Shown: positions 20,391 to 51,167 of the stretch, in pieces
How positions within the stretch are numbered: position 1 is the stretch's first letter
Layout: each line of letters opens with the position of its first letter
Origin: Citricoccus zhacaiensis
GTDB taxonomy: Bacteria > Actinomycetota > Actinomycetes > Actinomycetales > Micrococcaceae
Direction: 5' to 3'
DNA length: 64,000 nucleotides
NCBI RefSeq assembly: GCF_014645315.1
Contig: NZ_BMLQ01000007.1
Coordinates: 1-64,000 of the forward strand
Position numbers and translations under genes: made by a program
Notes under the pieces: generated by a model
The model's input: the letters and a program-made list of their open reading frames with translations, nothing else
Database searches by the model: none
Told to the model about the DNA's origin: nothing

Positions 20391-20435
20391 GGCTCGTGCC
20401 GTCCGGACCGTCATCGCCACCTTGGAGGAGTAGGA

Positions 20436-24874: not shown

Positions 24875-25669
24875 TCAGTGCACGGGCGAGTGACCGCCCA
24901 GCTGCTCGGTGAGGTGTGCAGCGGCCTCCATCACCCGTCGGCCCAATTCTGCTTCCCTGTCGTCGTCGACCCGAGTTGCCAGCGCGGCAATGCTGAGGGA
25001 GCCGGTGACCTCACCGACGGCATCGAACACGGGTGCGGCGAAACTGACTGATTCGGCAACGCGTTCGCTGTCGGTGCGGGCGTAGCCGTGTTCCCGCACG
25101 AGGCCCAGTCGTTCCCGGATCCGTTCGGGACGGGTCTCCGTGCGTTCGTTCAGGGCCGGTACCGGCCGGTTGAGGACGTCCTCGATGTCCGCCTGCGGCA
25201 GGAAGGCGAGCATGGCGTGACCGGATGCGCCGACCGTGAGGGGAAGACTCAGTCCCACCTGCACTGAGATGCGGATGAGCTGTGAGCTCTCCACCTGCCC
25301 GATATAGGTTCTGCGGTACCCCATCCGGGCGGAGAGGGTGGTGGTCTCCCCGGTGTCCTCGGACAGTGCGGCGAGCATGGCCATGCCCTCTTTGCGAAGA
25401 CTCGATTGTGCCGAGGCTGCGTTGGACAGGGCGAAGGCGCCGTTTCCGAGGGTGTACTTGCGGCTGGCCGGATCCTGGACCACCAAGTGGTTGGTGCCCA
25501 GTTCCTGCAGGATGCGGTGGGTCACTGCCTTGCTCAGTCCGGTGGAACGCGCGATGTCGCTGACCCCCAGCAGGGACTTGCCCTGAGAGAACGCCAGGAG
25601 GACCTGCACTACCCGTCCGGTCGTGGAGTCCGGTGGGCGGTGGACGGATGGTTCTGTCATGATCCTCAT
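24875..25669 (-). CDS. IclR family transcriptional regulator
   Basis: The 264-residue protein has the IclR winged helix (RVVQVLLAFSQGKSLLGVSDIARSTGLSKAVTHRILQELGTNHLV) and the effector domain with VGASGHAMLAFLP. The start is either ATG 25669 or ATG 25660; neither has a strong ribosome binding site. It lies 68 bp downstream of the flavoprotein gene in the same direction and at the edge of the large catabolic cluster. It is therefore the likely regulator of the flavoprotein and the divergent transporter operon. Confidence 0.9.
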   Translation of the reverse strand: MRIMTEPSVHRPPDSTTGRVVQVLLAFSQGKSLLGVSDIARSTGLSKAVTHRILQELGTNHLVVQDPASRKYTLGNGAFALSNAASAQSSLRKEGMAMLAALSEDTGETTTLSARMGYRRTYIGQVESSQLIRISVQVGLSLPLTVGASGHAMLAFLPQADIEDVLNRPVPALNERTETRPERIRERLGLVREHGYARTDSERVAESVSFAAPVFDAVGEVTGSLSIAALATRVDDDREAELGRRVMEAAAHLTEQLGGHSPVH

Positions 25670-25737
25670 TATTCGACGGGTTCCTCGAGGGAACGAGGGC
25701 GATGCTGTGGTGATGGTGCCGGCCAGTGAAGAAAAGC

Positions 25738-27117
25738 CTATGACCCCCTGTCCCAGGCGGCTACATGTTCTGCTGCGAGCAGGGACAGCCCGAGAGCGGG
25801 GAGGAGGCCGTTGCCCGCGAGGTATCCGGAGGGTCCGTGACCTGAGATGCCCGTGGCTGCCCCTCCGGAAGCATAAAGCCCGGTGATCGGGGTGGAACTC
25901 TCGCTGAGGACCCGTGCATGGCCGTCCACGGCGAGGCCGCCCTGGGTGTGGAAGAGTGCCGGTTCCACGAAGACGGCACCCAGCTTTCCTTCAAGGGGTG
26001 CCTCCCATGCGGTGCGTCCCCAGGGATCGAGGCCGGCAGCGCTGGCGATCGACTGTGCCTGCCGGACGGTCTCGACGAGCCCGAGGGGCTCGATGCCGCA
26101 GGACTCGGCCAGGCTGGCAGCATCATCGGCCCAGTGGATCCCGCCGGACTCGACGACGTCCACGAAATCCTGGAAGACCAGGCAGGCATCGTAGATGCGC
26201 TGGTCGAGGATGATCCACGACCGCCCCGCGGCGTGCTCGACTGATTCTCGGGCGTACTCCGAGTAGCCCATGGTCTCGTCTCCATAGCGCTGTCCCGCCT
26301 CGTTGACCAGGAACCCTCCGTGCATGACGGTGGCCCACGTGGTGAGCATGGCGGACGGGGAGGCCAGTGCGGCATGGCCTTGGTATGAGTCCAGGAATGC
26401 GGTGGCCGCACCCAGGTCACGGCCGATCCGCAGGGCATCGCCCGTGGATTCCTCACTGCCGTAATAGGTGGCCCCGGCGATCTCGGGCAGATGCTCGTGC
26501 ACCAGCTCTCGGTTGGCGCCGTAGCCGTTGGTGGCCAGCAGGACGGCGCGGGTGGGGATCTCCTCTGTTCCGTCCGGACTGGAGACGGTCACACCGCGGA
26601 CCGAACCGTCCTCAGCGAGCAGAACGTGTTCGAGGCGTGCGGGCACGAGGACGTCGATCAACTCAGAATCACCGACCTTGGCCAGCAGCATGTCCAGCAT
26701 CGCGCTGCCGGACCGTCCCGGCACGGTGTGGCAGCGGAACTGGCTGTGACCGGGGTACGGGAAGTCGGTCACCAGGGACAGGGGCATCTGCAGGTGATCG
26801 GCCATCCACTCCACGAGCCGCGCGCTCACGCCGGCCAGTGCTTGGGCCAGTTCCTCGTCTACGGTCCCGCCGGTCTTCTTCAGCACATCGGCGAGGAAGT
26901 TCTCGGGAGAGTCGGCGACGCCGGCCTCTCTCTGCCACCGAGACCCGGCGCCGGGGATCATGGCGGTGGACATCGAGGTGTTGTTTCCCCGCTTGAAGCG
27001 CGGGTTCGCCTCCACGACGAGAACCGAGCGTCCCAGTTCGGCGGCACGGAGGGCAGCGATCAGGCCTCCGCCGGCACCGGCCACGACGAGATCGGGACCT
27101 TCGAATTCTGCGTTCAT
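25738..27117 (-). CDS. FAD-dependent oxidoreductase, fumarate reductase/succinate dehydrogenase flavoprotein-like
   Basis: The 459-residue protein has an N-terminal FAD site VVAGAGGGLIAALRAAELGRSVLVVE and the FRD-type C-terminal pattern TQGGLAVDGHARVL ... ITGLYASGGAATGISGHGPSGYLAGNGLLPALGLSLLAAEHVA. Such enzymes reduce or oxidise a C=C bond next to a carbonyl or carboxylate. Of two close ATGs I chose 27117 because GAGGAG lies six bases upstream of it. The gene is divergent from the branched-chain-type ABC transporter operon and is followed by an IclR regulator, so it belongs to the catabolic cluster. No haem or iron-sulfur partner subunit is adjacent. Confidence 0.88.
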   Translation of the reverse strand: MNAEFEGPDLVVAGAGGGLIAALRAAELGRSVLVVEANPRFKRGNNTSMSTAMIPGAGSRWQREAGVADSPENFLADVLKKTGGTVDEELAQALAGVSARLVEWMADHLQMPLSLVTDFPYPGHSQFRCHTVPGRSGSAMLDMLLAKVGDSELIDVLVPARLEHVLLAEDGSVRGVTVSSPDGTEEIPTRAVLLATNGYGANRELVHEHLPEIAGATYYGSEESTGDALRIGRDLGAATAFLDSYQGHAALASPSAMLTTWATVMHGGFLVNEAGQRYGDETMGYSEYARESVEHAAGRSWIILDQRIYDACLVFQDFVDVVESGGIHWADDAASLAESCGIEPLGLVETVRQAQSIASAAGLDPWGRTAWEAPLEGKLGAVFVEPALFHTQGGLAVDGHARVLSESSTPITGLYASGGAATGISGHGPSGYLAGNGLLPALGLSLLAAEHVAAWDRGS

Positions 27118-27362
27118 CAGCATCTCCTCGGGGAACTGTTCGAGCTTCTGTGACAGAGAATACGCTACCAGCGTTCTGATCAGTGGAACTCGAATTTTCA
27201 TGGAATTTACACAAAAGGCTAGATAATCCGTGGAAACAGCGGCAGACTATCGGCATGCTGAACCTGTGATCCCATTCACGTGGTCCGGCGGGTGGAACAC
27301 TTCAGGGATTCTCCCGGCTGATGCCCAGCACCGTTTCAATGCCGACGAAGGGTTAGAGATCA
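27118..27362. promoter_or_regulatory. divergent control region with four TGGAA copies
   Basis: The 245-bp gap between the flavoprotein and the ABC transporter operon holds TGGAA at 27184, 27201, 27231 and 27293, all in the same orientation. IclR proteins often bind TGGAA-type half sites, so these could be binding sites for the regulator at 24875-25669. AT-rich stretches at 27190-27230 may hold the promoters. The assignment is tentative. Confidence 0.35.
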
Positions 27363-28586
27363 ATGCGTAGAAAAAGCCTTGCCGCCGCTGCGGTGGCGAT
27401 GATGGTGGGACTGACGGCCTGCTCCGGTGGCGGGGCCTCCGCCGGTGCTGGGGACACGATCGCGATCGGGGCCGTCCACCCGCTCTCCGGAGGGCTGGCC
27501 GGCGTCGGCGGGATGATGAACGACGGGGCCGCCCTGGCGGTGGAGGACATCAATGAGGCCGGTGGCATCGAGGCGCTCGATGGTGCCCAGCTCGAACTGC
27601 GTGACGGGGACAGCCAGGGCTCGGCCCAGACCGGGCAGAGTGAAGCGCAGCGTCTTATCAGCGAGGGCGCTGTGGCCCTGGTGGGCACCTACCAGAGTGA
27701 CGTCACCGAGAATGTCGCCTCTGCGGCGGAGCGCGCGGACGTCCCCATGGTCATCGACGTCGCCGTTGACGACAAGATCATGGAGCAGGGCTACGAGAAC
27801 ATCTTCCGGATCCAGCCGAACGCCAGCAGCATGGGTCAGGCCGGTGCAGAGACCCTAGCGGCGATGGGCGAGACCGCCGGCGTGGACGTGGAGAAGGTGG
27901 CCTACCTCCACATCGAGGGAGCCTTCGGCACCAGCGTGTCCGAAGCCTTCACGGAGGAGGCGGAAGCCCAAGGCATCGAGGTGGTCTCCACGGTCAGTTA
28001 CCCGGCCACGAATTTCTCGGACGCCACCACCCAGGTGAAGCAGGCGTTGAGTGCGGACCCGGACGTCGTCGTGGTCACCGGGTACTACCCGGACAACGTG
28101 CTGGTCGCGGAGGCCGTCCAGGCCCTCAACCCGGACATCCTCGGGGTCTTCGGCATCGCCAGTGGCGCCTTCGACGATTCCTCGTTCCCCGCTGATGCCG
28201 GGGCGGCAGCCACCAACGTCCTCAGCGCCAATTACCACTACGCGGCCACCAGTGAGCGGAGCCAGGACATCCGAGAGCGCTTCGAGGAGAAGTATGGCCG
28301 TCCCATGGAGACTGCAGCCATGCTCTCCTACCAGGCCGTCGAGGTCATCGCCGCCGGCCTGGAGGAGTCCGGGTCAGCTGATCCGGAGGCGCTCCGGGAT
28401 GCCATCGCCAACACCAGCATCGAGGATCCACTGCTGGCCTTCGACGGACCTATCGAGTTCGACGAGACCGGGGAGAACAAGAACGCGACGGTGATCGTCA
28501 TGCAGTCCCAGGACGGGGAGATCGAACAGGTCTTCCCCGAGGAGTTCGCCACGGCGGAGCTCATCTTCCCGGCACGGGACCAGTAG
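27363..28586 (+). CDS. branched-chain-amino-acid-type ABC substrate-binding lipoprotein
   Basis: This 407-residue protein has a signal peptide ending GLTAC at Cys20. It continues with the type I periplasmic-binding fold of LivJ relatives: IAIGAVHPLSGGLAGVGGMMNDGAALAVEDINEAGGI, then RLISEGAVALVGTYQSDVTENVASAAERADVP. It is the first gene of a five-gene transporter operon with two permeases and two ATPases. In actinobacterial catabolic clusters such transporters carry varied aromatic or cyclic amides and acids, so the substrate is likely the compound degraded by the downstream enzymes rather than leucine. Confidence 0.93.
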   Translation: MRRKSLAAAAVAMMVGLTACSGGGASAGAGDTIAIGAVHPLSGGLAGVGGMMNDGAALAVEDINEAGGIEALDGAQLELRDGDSQGSAQTGQSEAQRLISEGAVALVGTYQSDVTENVASAAERADVPMVIDVAVDDKIMEQGYENIFRIQPNASSMGQAGAETLAAMGETAGVDVEKVAYLHIEGAFGTSVSEAFTEEAEAQGIEVVSTVSYPATNFSDATTQVKQALSADPDVVVVTGYYPDNVLVAEAVQALNPDILGVFGIASGAFDDSSFPADAGAAATNVLSANYHYAATSERSQDIRERFEEKYGRPMETAAMLSYQAVEVIAAGLEESGSADPEALRDAIANTSIEDPLLAFDGPIEFDETGENKNATVIVMQSQDGEIEQVFPEEFATAELIFPARDQ

Positions 28587-28664
28587 GTCCACGCGCCTCG
28601 GACCTTGGCGGGCCGGCGCAACGTCAGCATCAGGATCATGCCAGTAATGAACAGGGGTGTCAGA

Positions 28665-29672
28665 GTGACACAAACGAGTACAGAGACGAAGGAAGCTCCG
28701 GCGGCTCCGCCGCGGCTCCTCGACAACCGACAACTCAGGATCGCCGCCGGGCTCGTCGTGGTGGTCGGCGCGGCCGTGGCCCTGATGTACCTCTTCGGAG
28801 GTCAGCCGTCGGGACTGCTGACCCAGTCCTTGATCACCGGGGTCCTGTTGGGTGGGGTCTACGCCCTGGTGTCCCTCGGGCTGACGCTGATCTTCGGCGT
28901 GCTGGGCATCGTGAACTTCGCGCAGGGCGCCATGCTGACGATGTCCATGTACATCGTCTTCTTCCTGGCCACGGAGTGGGGGCTCAACCTCTACCTCGCC
29001 GCCGCCCTGACCGTTCCGGTGATGTTCGGATTCGGTTGGCTCGTCCAATCGACCGTGCTGAACCGCGTGATGGGGGACAGCACCCATGAGCGCCCCTTGC
29101 TGGTGACCCTGGGCTTGTCCCTGCTCATCATCAACGTGCTGTTGATGGTTTTCGGCGGACGCCCGGTGAGCGTGGCCTCGCCGGTCGAGGGGTCGATCAA
29201 CGTGATCGGTGCCCTCGTGGATGTCCCCCGGCTGATCGCCTTCGGAGGCGCGCTGGCCGTGGCCGTGGCGCTGACGCTCATCCTGCGCAAGACCACGCTG
29301 GGACTGGCCATCAGAGCGGTGGCCGCGAACGACGTCGGTGCCTCCTTGGTGGGCGTCAACGTCAAACGCATCTACGCCATGACCTTCGGCGTGGGCGCGA
29401 CCTGCGTGGCCGTGGCCGGCGGCCTGATGGTCTCTTTCACCTCCCTGGTGCCGTCAGCCGGCGAGCAGTTCACCACCCTGGCCTTCGTGATCGTGGTTCT
29501 GGGGGGTCTGGGCAGTATCCCCGGCGCCCTGGTGGGCGGTCTGTTCATCGGCCTGGTCCAGACGGTGGGGTCGCTGTACCTCCCCGGTAGCGGTTCACTG
29601 CTGCTCGTCTTCGGCATCTTCCTCCTCGTCCTCTTCCTCCGGCCCCAGGGTCTGTTTGGAGCCAAGTCATGA
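28665..29672 (+). CDS. LivH-type ABC permease
   Basis: The 335-residue membrane protein has the LivH pattern GVLLGGVYALVSLGLTLIFGVLGIVNFAQGAMLTMSMYI near its N-terminus, the cytoplasmic loop LAIRAVAANDVGASLVGVNVKRIYAMTF and VLGGLGSIPGALVGGLFIGL. I chose the GTG at 28665, which follows AGGGG at a spacing of about 8; in-frame ATGs at 28638 and 28647 are possible. The stop overlaps the next permease start (ATGA). It forms half of the transmembrane channel with the LivM-type protein. Confidence 0.92.
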   Translation: MTQTSTETKEAPAAPPRLLDNRQLRIAAGLVVVVGAAVALMYLFGGQPSGLLTQSLITGVLLGGVYALVSLGLTLIFGVLGIVNFAQGAMLTMSMYIVFFLATEWGLNLYLAAALTVPVMFGFGWLVQSTVLNRVMGDSTHERPLLVTLGLSLLIINVLLMVFGGRPVSVASPVEGSINVIGALVDVPRLIAFGGALAVAVALTLILRKTTLGLAIRAVAANDVGASLVGVNVKRIYAMTFGVGATCVAVAGGLMVSFTSLVPSAGEQFTTLAFVIVVLGGLGSIPGALVGGLFIGLVQTVGSLYLPGSGSLLLVFGIFLLVLFLRPQGLFGAKS

Positions 29673-30721
29673 GCGCCACCACCGAGTCACCGCGGGGCAC
29701 CAAGCTGCCCTCCGCACTGCCCCAGCGGACCCACGACGGCGCCCGGCGCCAGTACATCTACCTGGCGGTCGGGCTGGTGGTGTTGTTCTTCCTGCCCTTC
29801 GTCCTGCCGGAGTCCAGCCAGCCCGTCCTCGTCCGTACCCTGATCTACGGCATCATGGCCGTCGGCTGGAATCTGATGAGCGGCTATGGCGGCATGTTCA
29901 GCTTCGGGCACGCGGCGTTCTTCGGCGTCGGCGCCTATACAGACGCAGTCCTGCTGACCAACTTCGGCATCTCCCCGTGGATCGCCATGATCATCGGTGC
30001 GGTGTTTTCCGCCGGGGTGGGCGTGCTCATCGCTTACCTGTGCCTGCGCTACAAGCTGGCCGGCTCCTACTTCGCGCTGGCGACGTTCGCCTTCGCCCAG
30101 ATGTTCCTGCTCCTGGCCCAGAACCTGGAACTGGTCAACCGCACGGAGGGCATCAACATCCCCCTGCTCCCAGAGGACTCCTGGGCCATGCTCCAGTTCG
30201 GGCAGGACAGCTTCAACTACTACTGGATCCCTTTATTGCTCCTGGCGGCGGCCGTGGCGGTCACCATCGCCTTCGTCTACTCACGACCGGGCCGGTACAC
30301 GCAGGCCATCAGGGACGACCCGGTGGCGGCAGAATCCCTGGGCATTCCCATCATGAAGTACCGGCTGATCACGGTGGCGTTGAGCTGTGCCATCACCTCC
30401 ATCGCTGGGTCCTATTACACGCAGTACTACCTCTTCGTCGGTCCGGAGCAGGCGTTCAGCATGCATGTCTCCACGGATGCGATCGTGCCCGCCGTGATCG
30501 GCGGGGTGGGGACCATCTGGGGCCCGCTGATCGGAGCCGCCGTCGTAGGCCCCCTGTCCGAACTCGTGGCCGCGGTGGTCCGCAACCCGCCGCCGTTCCT
30601 GGAGTTCCTCCAGGGCGTCAGCGGCCTTGACGTGGCCATCTACGCGGTGCTGCTGATCGTCATCGTCGTGTTCCTGCCCAAGGGCATCTACGGAACCATC
30701 CGGGAAAGGCTTCGCAAATGA
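29669..30721 (+). CDS. LivM-type ABC permease
   Basis: The 350-residue protein has the LivM markers LIYGIMAVGWNLMSGYGGMFSFGHAAFFGVGAYTDAVL, then KLAGSYFALATFAFAQMFLLL and AIRDDPVAAESLGIPIMKYRL, ending with the GGVGTIWGPLIGAAVVGPL helix. It overlaps its upstream partner by four bases and the downstream ATPase by four bases, a tightly coupled arrangement. It completes the heterodimeric membrane part of the importer. Confidence 0.93.
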   Translation: MSATTESPRGTKLPSALPQRTHDGARRQYIYLAVGLVVLFFLPFVLPESSQPVLVRTLIYGIMAVGWNLMSGYGGMFSFGHAAFFGVGAYTDAVLLTNFGISPWIAMIIGAVFSAGVGVLIAYLCLRYKLAGSYFALATFAFAQMFLLLAQNLELVNRTEGINIPLLPEDSWAMLQFGQDSFNYYWIPLLLLAAAVAVTIAFVYSRPGRYTQAIRDDPVAAESLGIPIMKYRLITVALSCAITSIAGSYYTQYYLFVGPEQAFSMHVSTDAIVPAVIGGVGTIWGPLIGAAVVGPLSELVAAVVRNPPPFLEFLQGVSGLDVAIYAVLLIVIVVFLPKGIYGTIRERLRK

Positions 30722-31434
30722 GCATCCTGAAACTCGAGGGGCTGTCCAAGTCCTTCGGCGGCCTGCGCGCACTGCGGGACGTCACCGTGGAGATCCCGGA
30801 ACGGGAGTTCTTCGGCATCATCGGCCCCAACGGCGCCGGTAAGACCACCCTGTTCTCGGTCATCGCCGGGCAGCTCGGGCCGACGTCCGGCCGCGTCGTC
30901 TTCGATGGCCAGGACATCACGGGCTGGTCGGCGGACAAGGTCGCCGGCGCCGGACTGGTGCGGACGTTCCAGCTGATGCGTCCGTTCGAATCCATGACAG
31001 TTCTGGACAACGTCTCCATCGCTTCTCATCGCCGGTTCCGCTCCACGGCGAAGTCCCGCGACCATGCGGCCGAGGTCATCGAACGGGTGGGTTTGAGCCA
31101 GTACCTCAACAAGATGTCCGGGACGCTGCCCACCGCGGGGCTCAAGCGCCTCGAGCTGGCCCGCGCCCTGGCCCTGGAGCCAAAGATCCTGCTGCTGGAC
31201 GAGGTGCTGGCCGGGCTGGTCCCCACGGAGCGGGCGCCGATCATCGACTTGCTGCGGGACATCCACCGAGACGGGGTCACCGTCATGTTCGTGGAGCACA
31301 TCATGGCGGCCGTGATGGCGCTGTCGGAACGTCTCCTGGTCATGCATGAGGGGGCCGAACTGACCCTCGGCGTGCCAGAGGATGTCGTCCAGGACCCACG
31401 GGTCGTCGAAGCTTATCTCGGAGAGGATTTCTGA
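30718..31434 (+). CDS. LivG-type ABC ATP-binding protein
   Basis: The 238-residue ATPase has Walker A GPNGAGKTTLFS, the Q-loop GLVRTFQLMRPFESMTVLDNV and Walker B EPKILLLDEVLAGLVPTE. The signature region reads LPTAGLKRLELARALA, in which the usual LSGG/LPYG-type motif is PTAG, a mild departure. The switch His is in MFVEHIM. It is the first of two ATPases in the operon, overlapping LivM by four bases and the LivF gene by one base. Confidence 0.92.
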   Translation: MSILKLEGLSKSFGGLRALRDVTVEIPEREFFGIIGPNGAGKTTLFSVIAGQLGPTSGRVVFDGQDITGWSADKVAGAGLVRTFQLMRPFESMTVLDNVSIASHRRFRSTAKSRDHAAEVIERVGLSQYLNKMSGTLPTAGLKRLELARALALEPKILLLDEVLAGLVPTERAPIIDLLRDIHRDGVTVMFVEHIMAAVMALSERLLVMHEGAELTLGVPEDVVQDPRVVEAYLGEDF

Positions 31435-32138
31435 TGTTCCTCCAACTCGATTCGGTGACCGCCGGATACCGCCGCCTTGACATCGTCCACGATCTCAACT
31501 TCCACGTCGAGCGCGGGGAGATCGTCTCCATCATCGGGGCCAACGGGGCGGGCAAGACCACGACTCTGCGCGCCATCGCCGGGCTGATCAACACCCGCAG
31601 CGGGCGGATCCGACTGGATGGTGAAGAGGTCCAGAACCAGCGCCCCGATCAGATCGTCAAGAACGGGATGGTCCACGTGGCGCAGGACCGGGCCCTGTTC
31701 GGAGACCTGGCCGTGCACGAGAACCTCACCATGGGAGCCTTCACCCAGCCCAAGTCCACCATCCGGGAGTCGTTGGAGCAGGTGTTTGAGCTCTTTCCGA
31801 TCCTGCGGGAGCGTCGCATGCAGCGGGCCAACACCATGTCCGGCGGTCAGCAGCAGATGCTGGCCATCGGTCGGGCGCTGATGGCCCGGCCCACGTGCCT
31901 CACCCTGGATGAACCCTCCATCGGCCTGGCCCCCAACCTGGTGGCCCAAGTGCTGGAAGCCATCAAGCGCATCCGGGACGCCGGGGTGACCGTGCTGATC
32001 GTGGAGCAGAACGCCGCCCAGGCCCTGGCGATCTCGGACCGCGCCTACGTCATGGAGAGCGGATCCATCGTCCTGGAAGGGACGGGCCAGGAATTGAATG
32101 ACAGTGCCGAGGTCCGCAAGGCCTACCTGGGCATGTGA
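31434..32138 (+). CDS. LivF-type ABC ATP-binding protein
   Basis: The 234-residue ATPase has Walker A GANGAGKTTTLRAIAG, VHVAQDRALFGDLAVHENLTMGAF, the signature MSGGQQQMLAIGRALM and Walker B LTLDEPSIGLAPNLV, with a LivF-type VEQNAAQALAISDRAYVMESG end. It completes the transporter. The stop is 58 bp before the racemase-like gene, so the transcript probably continues into the enzymes. Confidence 0.93.
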   Translation: MFLQLDSVTAGYRRLDIVHDLNFHVERGEIVSIIGANGAGKTTTLRAIAGLINTRSGRIRLDGEEVQNQRPDQIVKNGMVHVAQDRALFGDLAVHENLTMGAFTQPKSTIRESLEQVFELFPILRERRMQRANTMSGGQQQMLAIGRALMARPTCLTLDEPSIGLAPNLVAQVLEAIKRIRDAGVTVLIVEQNAAQALAISDRAYVMESGSIVLEGTGQELNDSAEVRKAYLGM

Positions 32139-32196
32139 CCCGGTTGCCGAACCTGAAGCATGACCGCTCGGTGCTGCACCCTGAGATGAGGAAGAC

Positions 32197-34366: not shown

Positions 34367-34429
34367 TGACTATCGCCAGTGCTTCCAATGTTCCACTTAC
34401 AGGAACGATAGCTAATGATTGGAGGTTCG

Positions 34430-37424: not shown

Positions 37425-38905
37425 GCACCACCGCACACACCACAGGGAAAACCACATCGGGCGCGACGCCGGCCCCCGCCTCGGACGCCACGCTCGCCGA
37501 GATCGTGGCGACTTGGGCGGAGGGCGTGGCCTTCGAGGACCTCTCTCCGGCCCTGGTCGAGAACATCAACTCCCGCGTCCTGGACATCCTGGGCATCTGT
37601 GCCGCGGCGGCTCCGCTGGATACCAGCCGCGCGGTGCGCCGCTTTGCGGCATCACAAGGCGGGGCCGGCCAGGCCAGCGCCGTCGGGGTGGGCGAGCAAT
37701 TGCCGGCCGCCCAGGCGGCCTTCGTCAACGGCGTCCTCGCGCATTCCCTGGACTATGACGACACCCACTTGCCTTCGGTGCTGCACCCCAGTGCCAGTGT
37801 CATCCCGGCGGTGCTGGCCGCCGCCCAGGCCCACGGGTCAGCGGGTCAGGACGTGATTCGGGCCATCGCCATCGGCCTGGAGGTCAGTGTCCGCCTCGGC
37901 ATGGCCGGCTATGACAGCACGGCGCAGAACTCGGTGTTCTTCGAACATGGCCAACATGCCACGTCCATCTGCGGCGCCATGGGATCCGCAGCGGCCGTGG
38001 CCGCCCTGCACGGGGGTGCGGAGCTGATTCGCAACTCCCTGGGCGTGGCCGCCTCGATGACTGCCGGGATCATCGAGTCGAACCGCACCGGTGGCACGGT
38101 CAAGCGCATCCACTGCGGTTGGGCCGCGCACTCGGCCATCACCGCCGTTGAGCTGGTCCGCCATGGCTTGACCGGCCCGCCCACGGTGTTGGAGGGCCGC
38201 TTCGGGTTCTTCCAGGCCTGGCTCCACGGAGCCTTCGATCCCTCGGCCATCACCGGTGACCTGGGGGAACGGTGGTCCATTGAGGACATCTTCTTCAAGC
38301 CGTACCCGGCCAACCACTTCACCCATGCTGCCGTGGACGCAGCGGCAGCCCTGCGGAGGGCCGGCATCACCCCGGAGGACATCAGCTCCATGGTCCTTGG
38401 GGTGCCGGCACCGAACCTGCGCACGATCGGCGAGCCGATCGACGTCAAGCGGACGCCCACCACCGCCTACATGGCCCAGTTCTCCGGGCCCTACGCGGTC
38501 GCCGCCGGACTGCTCGGCGGAGGGGGCTTGGAGGTCGGCCTGGACGACTACACGGACGAACTGGCGCAGGATCCGGTCCGGCGGGCCATCATGGCCAAGG
38601 TGGATGTGGTCCCGGACCCGGAGTGCACCGCGATCTTCCCGATGCAGTTCCCGGCGGTCCTCACCGCCCACCTCACGGACGGCCGGACCATCGTGGAAAA
38701 GGTTCTGGCCAACCGCGGCGGCAACGAGAATCCCCTCAGCTTCGAGGAGCTCACCCGCAAGTTCCGGGACAACGCCCGCCGCACCATGACCACAGGGGAC
38801 ATGGCGGCACTCGAAGAGGGCTGCCGCATCCTGGAAACAGCTATAACCGTCAATGACCTGTTCACCGGCCTCACCACGGTGGATCCAGACCACCTCCAGA
38901 AGTAA
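37421..38905 (+). CDS. MmgE/PrpD family protein, second copy
   Basis: The 494-residue protein has the MmgE/PrpD pattern: INSRVLDILGICAAAAP, FVNGVLAHSLDYDDTHLPSVLHPSASVIPAVLAAAQ with the active-site Asp/His set, QHATSICGAMGSAAAVAALHGG, then KPYPANHFTHAAVDA. It is clearly different from the first copy at 32867-34366. The ATG overlaps the cyclase gene stop. Members dehydrate, isomerise or decarboxylate small hydroxy-dicarboxylates or tricarboxylates. It is followed 13 bp later by the amidohydrolase gene. Confidence 0.9.
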   Translation: MSTTAHTTGKTTSGATPAPASDATLAEIVATWAEGVAFEDLSPALVENINSRVLDILGICAAAAPLDTSRAVRRFAASQGGAGQASAVGVGEQLPAAQAAFVNGVLAHSLDYDDTHLPSVLHPSASVIPAVLAAAQAHGSAGQDVIRAIAIGLEVSVRLGMAGYDSTAQNSVFFEHGQHATSICGAMGSAAAVAALHGGAELIRNSLGVAASMTAGIIESNRTGGTVKRIHCGWAAHSAITAVELVRHGLTGPPTVLEGRFGFFQAWLHGAFDPSAITGDLGERWSIEDIFFKPYPANHFTHAAVDAAAALRRAGITPEDISSMVLGVPAPNLRTIGEPIDVKRTPTTAYMAQFSGPYAVAAGLLGGGGLEVGLDDYTDELAQDPVRRAIMAKVDVVPDPECTAIFPMQFPAVLTAHLTDGRTIVEKVLANRGGNENPLSFEELTRKFRDNARRTMTTGDMAALEEGCRILETAITVNDLFTGLTTVDPDHLQK

Positions 38906-38918
38906 GAAAGGGACCCTC

Positions 38919-40406
38919 ATGTCCAACTACGATCTGCTGATCAAGAACGCCACCGTGGTGCGCCCGGGCGAGCTCGCCCCCGAGCTGCTGGATGTTGCCG
39001 TCAAGGACGGCAAGTTCGCCGCCATCGCCGCTGACATCGACGCCTCCGAGGCCACCGAGGTGGTGGATGGCACCGGCAAGCACCTCTTCCCGGGCGTCGT
39101 GGACGTCCATCAGCACTGGGGCATCTACAACCCGCTCGAGGAGGATGCCGAGACCGAGAGCCGCGCCAGCGCCCAGGGCGGGGTGACCAGCGGCATCACC
39201 TACGTGCGCACCGGTGCCTACTACCTGAACAAGTCCGGCCCCTACAAGGACATCTATCCCGAGGTCTTGGAGGCCACTCGGGGCCGGGCCTACATCGACT
39301 ACGGCTATCACGTGGCACCCATCCTCAAGGACCACATCAACGAGATCCCCGACCTGCTGGACATGGGCGTGGCCTCGTTCAAGATCTTCATGTTCTACGG
39401 CATCCACGGACTGCACGGCCGCTCCACTGACCAGAGCAAGTTCCTGATGATCCCGGAGGACGAGTCCTACGACTACGCCCACTTCGAGTTCGTCATGCGC
39501 GGCATCGAGAAGGCCCGCCAGGACCCGCGCTACGCGGACATCAAGGACCAGATCTCCCTATCCCTGCACTGCGAGACCGCCGAGATCATGCGCGCCTACA
39601 CCAAGTTGGTGGAGGAGGAGGGCACGCTGACCGGTCTGGAGGCCTACAGCGCCTCCCGCCCGCCGCACTCGGAGGGCCTGGCCATCACCATCGCCTCCTA
39701 CCTGGCGCATGAGACCGAGCTGCCCAACATCAACCTGCTGCACCTGACGAGCCGCAAGGCCATTGAAGCGGCCATGATGATGCAGCAGACCTTCCCGCAC
39801 ATCAACTTCCGCCGCGAGGTGACCGTGGGCCATCTGCTCGCCGACTGCCACACCGCGAACATGGGCGGCAAGGTCAACCCGCCGCTGCGCCCCCGAGAGG
39901 ACGTGGAGGCCCTCTGGGACCACCTGCTGGCCGGGAACTTCTCCTGGGTCACCTCGGACCATGCCTGCTGCAAGGACGAGACCAAGTTCGGTGACCCGCG
40001 CGAGGACGTCTTCGTGGCCAAGTCCGGCTTCGGTGGCGCCGAGTACCTGCTGGCCGGGATGATCTCCGAGGGACGCAAGCGAGGCCTGTCCTACAACAAG
40101 ATCGCCGAGCTGGTCTCCAAGAACCCCGCCGAGCGCTACGGCCTCAACGGCAAGGGCGACCTGCAGGTCGGCTTCGACGCGGACTTCTGCCTGGTCGACG
40201 ATCAGACGAACTACGTGGTCCGGGCCGAGGACTCCCTATCCACGCAGGAGTACACGCCCTTCGAAGGGTTCGAACTGACCGCCAAGATCACGGACACCTA
40301 CCTGCGAGGGAACACGGTGTTCCACGATGGCGCTGTGGTCGGTACCCCGCAGGGACAGTACTTGGACCGGACCGGCCGCACATCAGAGGTGCTGACCGAG
40401 GCGTAG
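38919..40406 (+). CDS. hydantoinase/dihydropyrimidinase-type amidohydrolase
   Basis: The 495-residue protein is a cyclic-amidohydrolase of the dihydropyrimidinase, hydantoinase and allantoinase group. It has the metal ligands His64 and His66 (DVHQHWG), a lysine in SFKIFMFYG (Lys155) that would be carboxylated to bridge two metals, and further ligands in SLHCETAE, LLHLTSRKA and TSDHACCKDE. It should open a five- or six-membered cyclic amide, imide or ureide. The ATG at 38919 follows AAAGGGA. It ends the first enzyme block; a strong hairpin follows. Confidence 0.92.
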   Translation: MSNYDLLIKNATVVRPGELAPELLDVAVKDGKFAAIAADIDASEATEVVDGTGKHLFPGVVDVHQHWGIYNPLEEDAETESRASAQGGVTSGITYVRTGAYYLNKSGPYKDIYPEVLEATRGRAYIDYGYHVAPILKDHINEIPDLLDMGVASFKIFMFYGIHGLHGRSTDQSKFLMIPEDESYDYAHFEFVMRGIEKARQDPRYADIKDQISLSLHCETAEIMRAYTKLVEEEGTLTGLEAYSASRPPHSEGLAITIASYLAHETELPNINLLHLTSRKAIEAAMMMQQTFPHINFRREVTVGHLLADCHTANMGGKVNPPLRPREDVEALWDHLLAGNFSWVTSDHACCKDETKFGDPREDVFVAKSGFGGAEYLLAGMISEGRKRGLSYNKIAELVSKNPAERYGLNGKGDLQVGFDADFCLVDDQTNYVVRAEDSLSTQEYTPFEGFELTAKITDTYLRGNTVFHDGAVVGTPQGQYLDRTGRTSEVLTEA

Positions 40407-40426
40407 GAGCAGGGAGAGCCATTCAG

Positions 40427-40471
40427 GAAGCCGCCTGGGCTTGTCTCGTCGAGACGGGCCCAGGGGGCTTC
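40427..40471. terminator. terminator after the hydantoinase gene
   Basis: GAAGCCGCCTGGGC (40427-40440) pairs with GCCCAGGGGGCTTC (40458-40471), with one mismatch. The loop itself contains GTCTC-GT-CGAGAC, a second small hairpin. It stands 21 bases beyond the stop and before the convergent GntR gene. Confidence 0.75.
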
Positions 40472-40535
40472 TCGCTCCAGAGAGGCCATGACAGAGGGCC
40501 TCTGTCCCGACCCGTGGTGCAGACGGCACGTGAAC

Positions 40536-41255
40536 TTAAGCGGTACTGGTCAGGTACCCGCCGAGCTTCTCGCGAAGACGGGTCCGCTTGCTGAGGTTGC
40601 GCTGCTTCTCACGGTCGGCCAGGGCACGGACGTAGGTCTGCCCCGCCTGATCGATGTGCTGGGTCAGGACCCGGGCCACCCCCGGGGCATCGGCGGCTCG
40701 GACGAGGTCCACAATCTGCGCGTGCTCGCGCATGGACACGGCCACGGCGTCGCTTTTCCATGTGGAGAGATGGGCCCGGAGCGCGGAGACCTGGGTGGAG
40801 ATCGCACCGTACGCCTCGGCCAGGTAGCGGTTCCCGCCGACTTCGAAGGCCACGGCATGGAACCGGGCGTCGAGTCGGTTGTACGCCGCACGGTCCTCCC
40901 GGGAGATGGCGGATTCCATCTCAGCCATGACGTCCACCAGGGCGGCCCCCGTGTGCGGTGCCGCCGTTCGCAGGGCGTCCTCCATGGCCCATGATTCCAG
41001 CCGGAAGCGAAAGCCGCATAACTCAAGCACCTGTTCGGGCGAGGGATCGAAGACGAAGGTGCCGGACTTGGGGACGATCTCTACGATTCCCTCGTTCTGC
41101 AACGCTTTCAGGGCTTCGCGCACGGGTGTCCTGCTGACGGAGAAGACCTCCGCCAGGGCATCCTCGGACAACGGCTCGCCGAGTTCGAAGGCACCGTCCG
41201 TGATGGATGCGCGGAGCGATGCAACGATCCCGTAGGCCATGGATGAGGTTCTCAC
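40536..41255 (-). CDS. GntR family regulator (FadR/FCD type)
   Basis: The 239-residue protein has an N-terminal winged helix with ALAEVFSVSRTPVREALKALQNEGIVEIVPKSGTFV and a C-terminal helical FCD domain containing the metal ligands (ARFHAVAFEVGGN, REHAQIVDLV). FCD regulators respond to organic acids, often catabolic intermediates. The GTG at 41255 follows GGAGGG at a spacing of about 9; an ATG lies six codons later. It is divergent from the PEP-mutase-type gene and faces an intergenic region with two matching palindromic sites, making it the likely repressor there. Confidence 0.93.
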   Translation of the reverse strand: MRTSSMAYGIVASLRASITDGAFELGEPLSEDALAEVFSVSRTPVREALKALQNEGIVEIVPKSGTFVFDPSPEQVLELCGFRFRLESWAMEDALRTAAPHTGAALVDVMAEMESAISREDRAAYNRLDARFHAVAFEVGGNRYLAEAYGAISTQVSALRAHLSTWKSDAVAVSMREHAQIVDLVRAADAPGVARVLTQHIDQAGQTYVRALADREKQRNLSKRTRLREKLGGYLTSTA

Positions 41256-41300
41256 TGAACGGGGCCCTCCTCTGTCGCCATCATGCTATCCGGCCCAACA

Positions 41301-41335
41301 CTTGTATCCAAGTTGAGGTTCATCTAGTATCCAAG
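41301..41335 (+). promoter_or_regulatory. promoter with two GntR-type operator copies
   Basis: CTTGTATCCAAG (41301-41312) and CTAGTATCCAAG (41324-41335) are near-identical, 23 bp apart, each an inverted repeat of the CTTG-N4-CAAG type typical of FadR/GntR operators. They overlap a good promoter: TTGTAT at 41302-41307 and TAGTAT at 41325-41330 with 17 bases between. A repressor on both sites would cover the -35 and -10 boxes of the rightward operon. Confidence 0.7.
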
Positions 41336-41451
41336 TTCAACGTGAGGTGCATCACGGTGATGACTCCCTTGATCCGCCGGGCCACAACCTGGCAGACCGT
41401 CGAAGTCCCCCGCGCCCCGCAACCCTCGGAGAATCAAGGACACGGAGAATC

Positions 41452-42312
41452 ATGAACGCGGCTGCATCATTGAGAACACTGCTCGAGCCGGGGCGGCCCC
41501 TCGTGCAGGCCCCGGGGGCCTTCGATTCGCTCACCGCCCGATTGGTCGAGCAGGCAGGGTTCCCGGCCGTCTATCTCACCGGCTTCGGGGCCACAGCGTC
41601 GAGACTCGGTCAGCCGGACATCGGCCTGCTCACCGCGACCGAGATGACGGAGCATGCCAGGAACATGGTCCGGGCCGTCTCCATTCCCGTCATCGCCGAT
41701 GCTGACAACGGGTACGGTGGCCCGTCCAACATTCACCGCACGGTCCTCGAATACCAGCAAGCGGGGGTCGCAGCGATTCACCTCGAGGACCAGGTCTCTC
41801 CCAAGCGCTGCGGGCAGATGGCCGGCATCAGCCTGGTGGACGCGGAAGACTCGGCCCGTCGGGTCAAAGCCGCCGTGGCGGCCCGCGGCTCTGACGACCT
41901 CGTGGTGATCGCCCGGACTGACGCCCTGGCCGCGACCTCCCGGGAGGACGCCGTCGAACGAATCCATCGCTACCGCGATGCCGGGGCAGACCTGCTCTTC
42001 GTGGACGGGGTCAAGACCATCCGTGACGTGGAGTTCATCGCCCAGTCCGTGGATGGGCACACAGTGGTCTCCATAGTGGACGGCACCGAGGCGGCGAGCC
42101 TAGCCGGCAGTGACCTGGAAGAGCTGGGATTCCGGATGGTCCTGTACCCATTAACCGCCCTGTTCTCGGCCACCTCCGCGGTGCAGCAGAGCCTGCACTC
42201 CCTGCGCGAGGACCAATCCGTACCGGCCAGCGCGATGGACTATGCCCAGTACTCGGAGATCGTCGACCTGCCGTTCCATCAGCATCTCGATGAGACCTTC
42301 GGCCAGCTCTGA
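41452..42312 (+). CDS. isocitrate lyase/PEP mutase superfamily enzyme
   Basis: The 286-residue protein has the superfamily markers: PGAFDSLTARLVEQAGFPAVYLTGFG, the metal-binding DADNGYGG at 83-90, HLEDQVSPKRCG with the catalytic-loop Lys118-Arg-Cys120-Gly and VIARTDALA. Length and loop match the 2-methylisocitrate lyase, 2,3-dimethylmalate lyase and oxaloacetate decarboxylase branch rather than true isocitrate lyase. It should cleave a 2-hydroxy or 2-methyl-malate-type acid to pyruvate, glyoxylate or similar plus a carboxylic acid. The ATG follows GGAGA and the gene starts a GntR-controlled three-gene unit. Confidence 0.88.
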   Translation: MNAAASLRTLLEPGRPLVQAPGAFDSLTARLVEQAGFPAVYLTGFGATASRLGQPDIGLLTATEMTEHARNMVRAVSIPVIADADNGYGGPSNIHRTVLEYQQAGVAAIHLEDQVSPKRCGQMAGISLVDAEDSARRVKAAVAARGSDDLVVIARTDALAATSREDAVERIHRYRDAGADLLFVDGVKTIRDVEFIAQSVDGHTVVSIVDGTEAASLAGSDLEELGFRMVLYPLTALFSATSAVQQSLHSLREDQSVPASAMDYAQYSEIVDLPFHQHLDETFGQL

Positions 42313-42359
42313 CTCCGCGGCCACGGCACTCTCCCCAACTCCCAAGACCTGAGGTATCC

Positions 42360-43346
42360 ATGTACAAGATCGTTATCACCGACTACGAGTTCACAGACCT
42401 GGCCCCGGAACGGTCCGTCTTCGACGGACAGGACGTCATGGTCGATGCCGGCCCTTTCGCCGACGAGGCCACCTTGCGGGAGGCCTGCCGAGACGCGGAC
42501 GCCATCATCAATCAGTACGTCCAGCTGGATGCCGCCTTCATCGCCACCCTGGAACGCTGCCGCGTGATTGCCCGGTACGGAATCGGCGTCAACACCATCG
42601 ACATCGAGGCCGCCACCGCCGCCGGCATCATGGTCGCCAACGTCCCCGATGGTTCCCTGGATGATGTGTCCGACCACGCGGCAGCCATGATCCTCTCCCT
42701 CTCCCGGGGACTGGGTATCTACGACCGCGCGCTGCGGCGAGGTCAGTGGGACTATGCCCAGGCCAAGCCGCTGCACCGGCTCCGCGGAGCCACCTTGGGG
42801 CTGCTGGGCTTCGGCAACATCCCTCGGCGTCTGGCCGCGAAGATGCAGGTCTTCGGCATGAGGGTGATCGCACACGATCCGTTCGTGGACCCGGACGTCG
42901 CGTTGCGGGGGCATGACACCACGCTGGTGACGCCTGAAGAGCTCTTCGCGGCAGCGGACGTGGTCTCGATCCACCTCCCGCTGACCACCGAGACGGTCAA
43001 CTTGGTGGATTCCCGGTTGCTGGGCCTGATGAAGACCACGGCGCTGTTGCTCAACACTTCCCGCGGCGGAATCGTCCAGGAAGAGGACCTGGCGGCGGCC
43101 CTGGCCGGAGGCCAGCTGGGAGGGGCCGGATTGGACGTCTTCAGCGCGGAACCGCTCGGTCATCAGTCCCCGTTCACCGAACTCGAGAACACGGTCCTAA
43201 CGCCCCACGCGGCGTGGTACTCGGAAGAGTCCGAACAGGAGATCCGCACCAAGACCGCCCAGAACGTCCTCGACGCCCTGTTCCAGGGGCAACCCACGTA
43301 TCTGGTGAACCGCGCCGTGGTCCCGCGCGCCGCCGTCGGGACCTGA
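42360..43346 (+). CDS. D-2-hydroxyacid dehydrogenase family protein
   Basis: The 328-residue protein follows the D-isomer 2-hydroxyacid dehydrogenase plan. A cofactor domain opens with TLGLLGFGNIPRRLAAKMQVFGMRVIAHDP, and the substrate/catalytic elements are ARYGIGVNTID, LPLTTETVNLVD, LLNTSRGGIVQEEDL and the His in LTPHAAWYSEES. The catalytic Arg/Glu/His set appears present. The glycine motif is GFGNIP, with Pro where a Gly is usual (GxGxxG). It is closest in style to C-terminal-binding-protein-like dehydrogenases. The substrate is probably a 2-oxo or 2-hydroxy acid released by the neighbouring lyase. Confidence 0.9.
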   Translation: MYKIVITDYEFTDLAPERSVFDGQDVMVDAGPFADEATLREACRDADAIINQYVQLDAAFIATLERCRVIARYGIGVNTIDIEAATAAGIMVANVPDGSLDDVSDHAAAMILSLSRGLGIYDRALRRGQWDYAQAKPLHRLRGATLGLLGFGNIPRRLAAKMQVFGMRVIAHDPFVDPDVALRGHDTTLVTPEELFAAADVVSIHLPLTTETVNLVDSRLLGLMKTTALLLNTSRGGIVQEEDLAAALAGGQLGGAGLDVFSAEPLGHQSPFTELENTVLTPHAAWYSEESEQEIRTKTAQNVLDALFQGQPTYLVNRAVVPRAAVGT

Positions 43347-43414
43347 ACCACCCATCGGTAGATCTGCCCAACCCCCCCCCTCATTCGCTGCACCCCTCAG
43401 AACCAAGGAGAATC

Positions 43415-44410
43415 ATGTCTCTGCACCTGAAGACCAGAACACTGTCCCTGGCGGCTCTCGCCCTTGCCGGCACCATAATGCTGAGCGCCTGTGCCGACAA
43501 CGCCGGGAGCAAGACCGCTGACGCGGAGGACTTTCCCACTACGGACATCCGCCTCGTGGTGCCGTGGCAGCCGGGCGGCCAGGGAGACCTCACCGCCCGC
43601 ACCTTGGCCCCGCTGCTGGAGGATGAGCTGGGGGTGTCCGTGATCGTGGAGAACCGGCCCGGAGCCAACGGGTCGATCGGCTACACCTGGCTGGCCGAGC
43701 AGGACCCGAACGGCTACAACCTGTCCATGATGGGCGTGGAGGTGGCGACGCTCCAGTTCATGGACTACGACGTGAGCCCGGATGACTTCGTCCCGATAGG
43801 CCAGGCCATCGAGGGCCCGGGCGCCATTGCCGTACCGGTGGACAGCCCCTACGAGTCCCTTTCAGAGCTTATCGAGGACGCCAAGGCGAACCCGGGCAAG
43901 CTGACCTATTCCTCGCCCGGGGTCGGATCCGTGTGGGATTCCCCGGCACGGGGCCTGCAGGACCTGGCTGGCATTGAGTTGACCAGCGTGCCGTACGACG
44001 GGTCTGCACCCTCTATCGCCGCGGCCGCCGCAGGTGACGTGACCTTCTCAATCGATGCGATGGGCAGCCAGAAGGCCCAGGTAGACGGTGGCGAGATGCG
44101 CTACCTCGCCATGCTCTCCGAGGAGCGCCACCCGGACTACCCTGACGTGCCGACCGCTCAGGAGGAGGGAGTCGACCTGCAGAACGCCTCATGGGCTGGC
44201 ATCATGGCGCCGGCTGGCACCCCGGACGAGGTGGTCAAGGTCCTCTCCGACGCGATGGGTGTGGCCGTCCATGATCCCGGCTACATCAAGGTCATCGAGG
44301 ACGGTAACCAGATCCCGACGTTCCGTGACTACGAGGAGACCGCCGCCCTGATCCAGAGCGAGGCCGACCGCTACGGGCCGTGGATCGAGATGGCCCAGCA
44401 GGGCCAGTGA
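43415..44410 (+). CDS. Bug/TctC family tripartite tricarboxylate binding lipoprotein
   Basis: The 331-residue protein begins with a signal ending MLSAC, a lipobox. It then shows the Bug family pattern: IRLVVPWQPGGQGDLTARTLAPLLEDELGVSVIVENRPGANGSIG, LTYSSPGVGSVWDSPARGLQ, TSVPYDGSAPSIAAAAAGDV and WAGIMAPAGTPDEVV. Bug proteins bind carboxylates and normally work with TctA and TctB membrane proteins, which are not adjacent here. The ATG at 43415 follows AAGGAG, preceded by a run of nine C residues (43372-43380). It may serve as a solute sensor or supply an unlinked transporter. Confidence 0.92.
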   Translation: MSLHLKTRTLSLAALALAGTIMLSACADNAGSKTADAEDFPTTDIRLVVPWQPGGQGDLTARTLAPLLEDELGVSVIVENRPGANGSIGYTWLAEQDPNGYNLSMMGVEVATLQFMDYDVSPDDFVPIGQAIEGPGAIAVPVDSPYESLSELIEDAKANPGKLTYSSPGVGSVWDSPARGLQDLAGIELTSVPYDGSAPSIAAAAAGDVTFSIDAMGSQKAQVDGGEMRYLAMLSEERHPDYPDVPTAQEEGVDLQNASWAGIMAPAGTPDEVVKVLSDAMGVAVHDPGYIKVIEDGNQIPTFRDYEETAALIQSEADRYGPWIEMAQQGQ

Positions 44411-47901: not shown

Positions 47902-48208
47902 ACTTCGTGCTCCTGCCTTTGGCGAGGTTCACGGGATACTTCTCGTGTGTCTTGCCCAACTTGGTCTGAACGATCTCGTCCACGTCTAGGCCAAGGGCAT
48001 CCGCGAGCAGGAAGCAGTACGTGAGGACGTCGGCGAGCTCCGACTGAACCTCATCGATGTCGGCCTCGCCGCCCCATTGGAAACTTTCCAGAAGTTCACC
48101 GGACTCGATGGAGATACTCTTCGCAAGGTTCTCCGGGGTGTGGAATTGACTCCACTCTCTTTCGGAGACCATCTGACGGATCAGGTCCATGGTGCGCTCA
48201 TGACTCAT
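47888..48208 (-). CDS. MazG-like nucleotide pyrophosphohydrolase
   Basis: The 106-residue protein is an all-alpha NTP pyrophosphatase of the MazG-like type. The metal-binding motif EXXE...EXXD is present: Glu35-Glu38 (SIESGELLE) and Glu57-Asp60 (SELADVLTY). These enzymes hydrolyse nucleoside triphosphates to monophosphates and pyrophosphate and can lower unusual or signalling nucleotides. It is upstream of and overlaps the GIY-YIG/DUF2075 gene, which suggests translational coupling and a joint role. Length is typical for single-domain MazG-like proteins. Confidence 0.9.
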   Translation of the reverse strand: MSHERTMDLIRQMVSEREWSQFHTPENLAKSISIESGELLESFQWGGEADIDEVQSELADVLTYCFLLADALGLDVDEIVQTKLGKTHEKYPVNLAKGRSTKYDRL

Positions 48209-51143: not shown

Positions 51144-51167
51144 GGGATGCTTCCGAGTTGGCAGGTC

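Follow-up and report, generated by a model that had tools for sequence, protein, structure and literature searches.

The window analysed here is a 64,000-nt stretch of Citricoccus zhacaiensis DNA (contig NZ_BMLQ01000007.1, positions 1 to 64,000; G+C 66.6%, genome 3.69 Mb). Fourteen of its genes, at 24875-40406, almost certainly form one catabolic unit. They encode an IclR-family regulator, an FAD-dependent dehydrogenase, a five-gene Liv-type importer, an Asp/Glu/hydantoin-racemase family protein, two MmgE/PrpD proteins (PrpD1 and PrpD2), a CitE-like lyase, a class III CoA-transferase (CoAT), a Cyclase-family hydrolase (Cyc) and a hydantoinase-type amidohydrolase (Hyd). The core is proposed, with evenly balanced confidence, to be an uptake and catabolic unit for a small five-membered cyclic imide with a carbon branch (a substituted succinimide or maleimide); alkylated succinimides or maleimides are the best-fitting substrates.

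Open reading frames (ORFs) were listed and the window proteins were scanned against Pfam and NCBIfam, which gave 18 genes within 24875-44410. An earlier note on this DNA had put the number at about 16; all of the gene types that it named are present where it placed them, each above its Pfam cut-off. From 27363 to 40406, 12 genes run on the + strand with gaps of at most 58 bp, and at seven junctions neighbours overlap by 1-8 bp (Hyd start at 38919). The genes for the FAD-dependent dehydrogenase (25738-27201, - strand) and the IclR-family regulator (24875-25669, - strand; Pfam IclR_C and HTH_IclR) lie upstream of this run in the opposite orientation, and the 14-gene unit is probably under IclR control. 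The run opens with the Liv-type ATP-binding cassette (ABC) importer (27363-32138, + strand; Pfam/NCBIfam), made up of a solute-binding protein (SBP) lipoprotein, two permeases and two ATPases.

Linkage of these genes in other genomes was assessed by scanning contigs with an alignment of three Hyd proteins only, two of them 69% and 66% identical to that of the window. At least 417 relatives were confirmed, and the best 80 of the 417 were kept as loci; 79 of these are actinobacterial by title, two (L032 and L033) are near-identical, and 22 are shorter than 21.3 kb. The closest named Hyd relatives among the matches listed come from Micrococcaceae. Neighbours were called with an ORF script that misses genes in low-GC loci, apparent antisense-shadow families were removed by eye, and counts were made at identity cut-offs without a coverage requirement. 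CoAT was found in 73 of the 80 loci, PrpD2 in 65, Cyc in 63, CitE in 56 and IclR in 54 (at a lenient cut-off of 30%), followed by the FAD protein (31), the racemase (22), SBP (21) and PrpD1 (20). For the 58 longer loci the counts were 55, 47, 45, 44 and 43 for the first five in that order, 27, 18, 14 and 13 for the other four, and 0 for the four genes at 40536-44410. The top same-strand neighbour pairs were Cyc-PrpD2 (59), PrpD2-Hyd (44) and CoAT-Cyc (42). The most frequent pattern, Hyd + CoAT + Cyc + PrpD2 + CitE + IclR, occurs in 12/58 full-length loci, and seven further full-length loci differ from it only in having no recognised IclR. A subset of loci adds genes for the FAD protein, the racemase, PrpD1 and the Liv importer. 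The transporter type varies, being Liv in the window, MFS on a Rhodococcus gordoniae plasmid, and NMT1-type ABC and EamA elsewhere; on the Streptomyces NBC_01483 plasmid (L005), Hyd has an NMT1-type ABC transporter as its neighbour but no other enzyme of the set. Hyd-versus-partner distance correlations were moderate (Spearman 0.33-0.65) and were not used as evidence.

A separate sample of 396 actinobacterial genomes, evenly drawn, holds a close Hyd relative in 11, the window's own included. The ten other Hyd-bearing genomes gave CoAT in 7, PrpD2 in 6, and Cyc, CitE and FAD in 5 each (one of the ten loci, L115, repeats L046 of the best 80). Seven control regions, taken round relatives of the PEP_mutase/isocitrate lyase (ICL)-type lyase (PEPM) encoded just downstream of the core, held no core genes at the cut-offs; three of these regions were <11 kb. 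The earlier note had claimed one coherent set and had named co-occurrence in other genomes as a check; the best-80 loci and the separate draw uphold the claim for 14 of the 18 genes (24875-40406) and go against it for the last four, which are taken up below. Its outline of the chemistry, catabolism of a cyclic amide-type ring via a C4-backbone dicarboxylate, is supported, as are the types of step that it named: opening of the ring, hydrolysis of the amide, activation with CoA and C-C cleavage.

Some loci carry further genes. On Rhodococcus gordoniae pDND3A (L004, 4133-9401), a core copy adjoins HyuA, HyuB and an amidase, so that both ring-opener types are close by, together with a second CoA-transferase, a MaoC protein and an MmgE/PrpD. 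An M20-peptidase-family gene lies near the core in L042, L054, L061, L087 and L027, most of which also have an alpha/beta hydrolase family gene. Two loci titled as Bifidobacterium breve metagenome-assembled genomes (MAGs; L038, L065) have a cluster order like that of the actinobacterial MAGs L041 and L075, and the label may be wrong.

Residue conservation was read from alignments that left out rows ≥98% identical and rows with <70% coverage. Hyd (38919-40406, + strand; the longest ORF starts at 38853 and the likely start is 38919) has the binuclear site of cyclic amidohydrolases (HxH, Lys, two His, Asp) together with the predicted fold; the metal ligands H86, H88, K177, H239, H297 and D369 and also Y182 are ≥95% conserved (n=94, longest-ORF numbering). 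Against the NCBIfam allantoinase AllB model it scores 231.3 bits, under the cut-off of 357.85, and it is thus not placed in the allantoinase equivalog. The Hyd structure model has a predicted local distance difference test score (pLDDT) of 85, and Foldseek matched it about equally well to allantoinases and D-hydantoinases (template modelling score (TM) ~0.8). When Hyd is aligned with two D-hydantoinases its Tyr falls on their FMAY motif, and no Tyr stands there in the aligned allantoinases. Hyd is very probably the ring opener. Cyc (36612-37424, + strand; PF04199, 95.5 bits) keeps the motif HxGTHxDxxxH, with H64, H68, D70 and H74 ≥95% conserved (n=69); its best PDB match is an uncharacterised protein, followed by others that include isatin hydrolase and kynurenine formamidase, both distantly related. 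Cyc is proposed as a metallo-amidase and candidate half-amidase.

The racemase-family protein (32197-32874, + strand; PF01177, 47.6 bits) gave an AlphaFold model with a pLDDT of 94, whose best Foldseek matches are allantoin racemase (TM 0.74, 15-17% identity) and hydantoin racemase. Both Cys residues of such racemases are present, C80 and C180, invariant in 22 sequences. The FAD protein is fumarate-reductase/flavocytochrome-c-like (FAD_binding_2, 159 bits), with flavocytochrome c3 fumarate reductase as its best PDB match. H276, R305 and H418 align with the catalytic His/Arg/His of fumarate reductase and are ≥95% conserved (n=36). In place of the C-terminal Arg that holds the second carboxylate there is a GHGPSGY stretch, so an imide or half-amide would be a plausible substrate.

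On the acid side, PrpD2 (37421-38905, + strand; PF03972, 193 bits) has iminodisuccinate (IDS) epimerase as its best PDB match, and H108, D111, H122, H179, K228 and K293 are ≥95% conserved (n=70). According to PMC12290011, characterised MmgE/PrpD substrates share a 1,4-dicarboxylate, held by His, Glu, His, His, Lys and Lys. PrpD2 matches these residues by motif and spacing, with D111 as Asp for Glu. In methylsuccinate isomerase and IDS epimerase the second catalytic base is a Tyr; Phe174 of PrpD2 (70/70 sequences) stands where HMMER aligns a Tyr of an IDS epimerase, in a gapped stretch of the alignment. PrpD1 (32867-34366, + strand; PF03972, 118 bits) has Arg216 for the Lys of characterised members and Cys, Val or Ala at the first His site in 21/21 sequences. 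In a tree it joins one MmgE/PrpD each of Roseomonas, Tistrella, Neorhizobium, Methylobacterium nodulans, Haloferax and Halorubrum (FastTree local support 0.98); the second haloarchaeal MmgE/PrpDs fall just outside this group (0.96), and PrpDb of M. nodulans lies elsewhere. PrpD1 is a divergent MmgE/PrpD subfamily and a companion of the FAD enzyme in several lineages.

CoAT (35428-36615, + strand; CoA_transf_3, 389 bits) has succinate-hydroxymethylglutarate CoA-transferase as its best PDB match, and D167, which we take to be the catalytic Asp of a class III enzyme, is ≥95% conserved (n=78). The CitE-like lyase (34415-35428, + strand; HpcH_HpaI, 69.9 bits) matches PDB entry 3qll best, with E64, D65, R106, E159 and D185 ≥95% conserved (n=58). 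It scores 141.6 bits against the NCBIfam model of the itaconate C-C lyase RipC, whose cut-off is 375, which leaves it outside that equivalog. It is proposed as a candidate 2-hydroxy-2-alkylsuccinyl-CoA (citramalyl-CoA-type) lyase.

Counterpart clusters were found through FAD proteins 39-43% identical to that of the window, which occur in 42 plasmid records. Twelve of these records were read, including Rhodococcus; the 11 non-actinobacterial clusters were counted with the gene identities of the records' own annotation. The ring opener is of the hydantoinase type in 4 clusters and HyuAB in 6, with none in the stretch read in 1. An isochorismatase or cysteine hydrolase occurs in 10, LeuCD and/or MmgE/PrpD in 10, and a C-C lyase in all 11: ICL type in 8, CoAT with a 3-hydroxy-3-methylglutaryl-CoA (HMG-CoA)-lyase type in 2, and CoAT with a CitE type in 1. 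All eight ICL-type enzymes carry K-K/R-C-G-H. Two Azospirillum species and two Sulfitobacter have the ICL-type lyase, HyuA, HyuB, cysteine hydrolase, FAD and LeuCD, and Roseomonas and Neorhizobium have the same kind of set with MmgE/PrpD replacing LeuCD. M. nodulans has an ICL-type lyase, isochorismatase, two MmgE/PrpD, FAD, hydantoinase type and Liv genes; Tistrella has FAD, ICL-type lyase, MmgE/PrpD and Liv, and the stretch read shows neither a ring opener nor an amidase. Haloferax and Halorubrum combine LeuCD, the HMG-CoA-lyase type, CoA-transferase, amidohydrolase, isochorismatase, LLM and NTF2 genes with FAD, two MmgE/PrpD, IclR and Liv-type transporter genes; the Haloferax CoA-transferase and amidohydrolase are 48% and 30% identical to those of the window. 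Halomarina has two amidohydrolase-isochorismatase pairs, a CitE-type lyase (29%) and a CoA-transferase (48%), with no LeuCD or MmgE/PrpD in the stretch read. Among the loci reached by a PrpD2 search in plasmids were two clusters with other MmgE/PrpDs.

The hydratase (LeuCD or MmgE/PrpD) and the lyase types look interchangeable round a conserved FAD enzyme, ring opener and amidase. The ICL type would act on the free acid and the CitE or HMG-CoA-lyase type on the CoA ester. ICL-type and CitE/HMG-CoA-lyase-type lyases both split malate-type compounds. A substituted malate is therefore the probable common intermediate, derived from a substituted maleate or succinate that would come from a cyclic imide by way of the half-amide. 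The alphaproteobacterial counterparts have an ICL-type enzyme where actinobacteria have CoAT and CitE, which suggests that the two are alternatives and not successive steps.

Other genes were seen near these clusters. On the Sulfitobacter sp. S190 plasmid (L135, 12985-21185), the FAD/HyuAB/ICL cluster has as neighbours genes for a molybdopterin hydroxylase and a 6-hydroxynicotinate reductase, together with genes of the UPF0280 and amino-acid-synthesis families; the related cluster of S. pontiacus (L142) has no nicotinate-type, UPF0280 or amino-acid-synthesis genes in the 25 kb read. On a Shinella plasmid (L008, 19871-20803), a gene annotated as hydroxymethylbilane synthase (hemC) lies ~8 kb away from one of hydantoinase type, whose cluster also holds two aconitases, an ICL-type lyase and an isochorismatase.

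From the gene content, linkage, conservation, catalytic-type residues, two predicted folds and equivalent enzymes in other lineages, we infer a substrate, a step order, regulation and individual reactions as follows. The Liv importer would bring the ring compound into the cell, and the allantoin/hydantoin-racemase-like protein may convert the enantiomers at the acidic ring carbon into each other. Desaturation of the saturated form to the maleimide/maleamate level would fall to the FAD enzyme, with PrpD1 as a partner in an undefined role. Hyd would open the ring to give the half-amide, and Cyc would release ammonia from it to leave a substituted maleate or succinate. PrpD2 may set stereochemistry or add water to reach a substituted malate, which the class III CoA-transferase would turn into its CoA ester and the CitE-like lyase would split to yield a 2-oxo acid plus an acyl-CoA. 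It is fairly likely that the sequence ends with the splitting of a malate-type CoA ester.

Several observations weigh against this pathway. Hyd stands without enzyme partners in L076, L084, L116 and L123, and an Acidimicrobiaceae MAG (L024) has malic enzyme after Hyd, without PrpD2 and CitE. The FAD protein is present in only 31/80 loci, which places the desaturation step outside the shared core, and that of M. nodulans is without the Q-x-H motif. Outside Actinobacteria, Hyd identity is only 30-35%. PrpD1, for all its Pfam score, lacks two of the dicarboxylate-site residues. PrpD2 is nearer to epimerase and decarboxylase structures (134 and 127 bits) than to dehydratase structures (35 bits), and the methylsuccinate isomerase of the MmgE/PrpD family is inactive on citraconate and mesaconate, according to PMC12290011; hydration by PrpD2 is therefore a guess. 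The racemase-family protein has the fold of racemases for allantoin and hydantoin, and HyuAB with an isochorismatase-fold hydrolase would fit hydantoins too. As a separate observation, the L024 gene (11476-12948, malic-enzyme family) may offer a different route for breaking an intermediate of malate type.

The likeliest of the rival readings takes the ring to be a cyclic ureide, such as a 5-substituted hydantoin; Cyc would then be a carbamoylase, and once the product was deaminated its carbon skeleton would pass to the later enzymes. Besides the racemase model, the Hyd Tyr that aligns with the D-hydantoinase Tyr speaks for it, as do the HyuAB and cysteine hydrolases of the alphaproteobacterial counterparts, a combination used by some hydantoin pathways. 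The M20-peptidase superfamily includes carbamoylases, and an M20-peptidase-family gene is upstream in five actinobacterial loci, its best NCBIfam models being dipeptidase/deacylase, none above cut-off. However, the Pfam scans gave no carbamoylase-type family among the 18 genes, these include no aminotransferase or deaminase, and an amino acid end product would need no CoA-transferase, CitE, LeuCD or ICL-type lyase. The ureide is on this balance unlikely.

A partly reduced N-heteroaromatic ring (a pyridine- or pyrimidine-type lactam), opened by Hyd as enamidase does in nicotinate fermentation, is somewhat less probable again. It draws on the molybdopterin hydroxylase and 6-hydroxynicotinate reductase adjoining the Sulfitobacter S190 cluster, on the LLM flavin monooxygenase-type and NTF2-like proteins of the haloarchaeal clusters, and on a relative of a Sulfitobacter 'tautomerase' in 11/95 loci searched. 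Yet neither the 18 genes nor ten scanned neighbour proteins from other loci include a ring hydroxylase or reductase, the window has no LLM or NTF2 relative, and S. pontiacus has the same cluster without nicotinate-type genes in its 25 kb. Between the three kinds of ring, an imide rather than a ureide or lactam is slightly favoured.

The four genes downstream of the core encode a GntR/FCD regulator (40536-41255, - strand), PEPM (41347-42312), a 2-hydroxyacid dehydrogenase (42360-43346) and a TctC/Bug protein (within ORF 43214-44410), all above Pfam cut-offs. None of the four was found at the cut-offs in any of the best 80 loci or in the ten separately drawn Hyd loci; sub-cut-off matches were GntR at 31-34% in L040 and L068 and the dehydrogenase at 32% in L024. 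The GntR gene points towards the end of the Hyd gene and away from PEPM, and a promoter and terminator scan of 40300-41400 gave nothing for or against a separation of units. Block 40536-44410 is probably an adjacent unit, separate from the core, with its own regulator gene. The earlier note had counted the PEP-mutase-type lyase, the dehydrogenase, Bug and GntR as members and had deduced two cleavage steps from the two lyases; with 0/80 loci for these genes, the PEPM lyase included, neither point was borne out. As part of the pathway the block was rejected on co-occurrence, with the caution that the sole congener with the core, one of seven (G005), also has the block, collinear and at 94% identity. 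Another genome (G001) has no match to 21671-45393 in the 20 kb read, so that no empty site was found that would separate core from block. Leaving aside the window's own genome, Hyd relatives occur in 10 and PEPM relatives in 6 of the 396 sampled genomes, and no genome is among both; chance would give ~0.15 shared genomes, so this says little and was discounted as evidence. A single 18-gene pathway with the PEP-mutase-type lyase acting after CitE has for it the collinearity in the only congener having either part and the related ICL-type lyases (35-41% identical) inside alphaproteobacterial FAD clusters, but it is the least probable of the rivals, with the block absent at the cut-offs from 80 and 10 loci, a GntR gene of its own, and a window lyase motif of KRCGQ, not K-K/R-C-G-H.

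Elsewhere in the C. zhacaiensis genome (L001, contig C6, ~267666), a third MmgE/PrpD has a PEP-mutase/methylisocitrate-lyase-like gene nearby, 36% identical to that of the window; this pair is perhaps a methylcitrate cycle that could absorb propionyl-CoA. Within the window, an NMT1/THI5-like binding protein adjoins an FAD_binding_3 monooxygenase-type protein at 19356-21611, a possible separate catabolic pair, the latter gene having a 96% match in one of seven congeners and 37-42% matches in two. A 154-residue TMP-TENI (thiamine-phosphate-synthase-like) frame at 45004-45468 covers profile positions 20-141 of 180 and may be a remnant. Further downstream, at 45952-52379, are a Schlafen group 3 helicase-domain protein, an SNF2-family helicase with a strong match in only 2/7 congeners, and a Fic protein.

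The core is widespread, recurring in many bacteria of soil and water. With a Hyd relative in 11/396 actinobacterial genomes and parallel clusters in alphaproteobacteria and haloarchaea, the substrate should be common in nature, and the pattern of swaps narrows the chemistry far enough for a short list of imides to probe it. Such a test would give functions to two subfamilies of MmgE/PrpD and to one each of the FAD and hydantoinase-type proteins. A broader proposal, improbable as it stands, is that alkylated succinimides and maleimides from oxidised chlorophyll, heme and bilins (ethylmethylmaleimide, hematinic acid) are broken down by a pathway that mixes and matches its parts across domains. 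Actinobacteria, alphaproteobacteria and haloarchaea would all keep the FAD dehydrogenase, often with the divergent MmgE/PrpD, and would differ in which ring opener, amidase, hydratase and lyase they use. If true, this would be the last stage that is still lacking from tetrapyrrole recycling.

Full-text searches of open-licence PMC papers listed no description of the core gene set, and the nearest known systems share parts of it. In Blastobacter, cyclic imides are metabolised by an imidase and a half-amidase. The fungal HxnM/HxnN route likewise leads from a cyclic imide through a half-amide to a hydroxy or unsaturated diacid, as set out in PMC9304392, where HxnM is related to the Pseudomonas putida imidase and PuuE, and HxnN shares the catalytic residues of FAAH1. 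The window candidates belong instead to the hydantoinase and cyclase families, with CoA-dependent cleavage in addition. The itaconate/methylsuccinate cluster (ict-ich-ccl, mcd and an MmgE/PrpD methylsuccinate isomerase; PMC12290011) shares with the core a CoA-transferase, a CitE-like lyase and an MmgE/PrpD for branched C4-backbone dicarboxylates. It begins with the free diacid, however, and the part of that source at hand describes no ring opener, amidase, racemase or Liv importer; its itaconyl-CoA hydratase and acyl-CoA dehydrogenase are in turn not among the 18 genes of the window. The window CitE is also far below the RipC cut-off. A branch of nicotinate fermentation takes 2,3-dimethylmaleate to dimethylmalate and on to pyruvate and propionate, and a LeuCD-type hydratase with an ICL-type lyase is the pair known for dimethylmaleate. 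Several alphaproteobacterial counterparts likewise have the LeuCD/aconitase-type hydratase and ICL-type lyase of this branch; no B12 rearrangement genes are annotated in the stretches read, and the actinobacterial form differs in having PrpD2 with a CoA-transferase and CitE.

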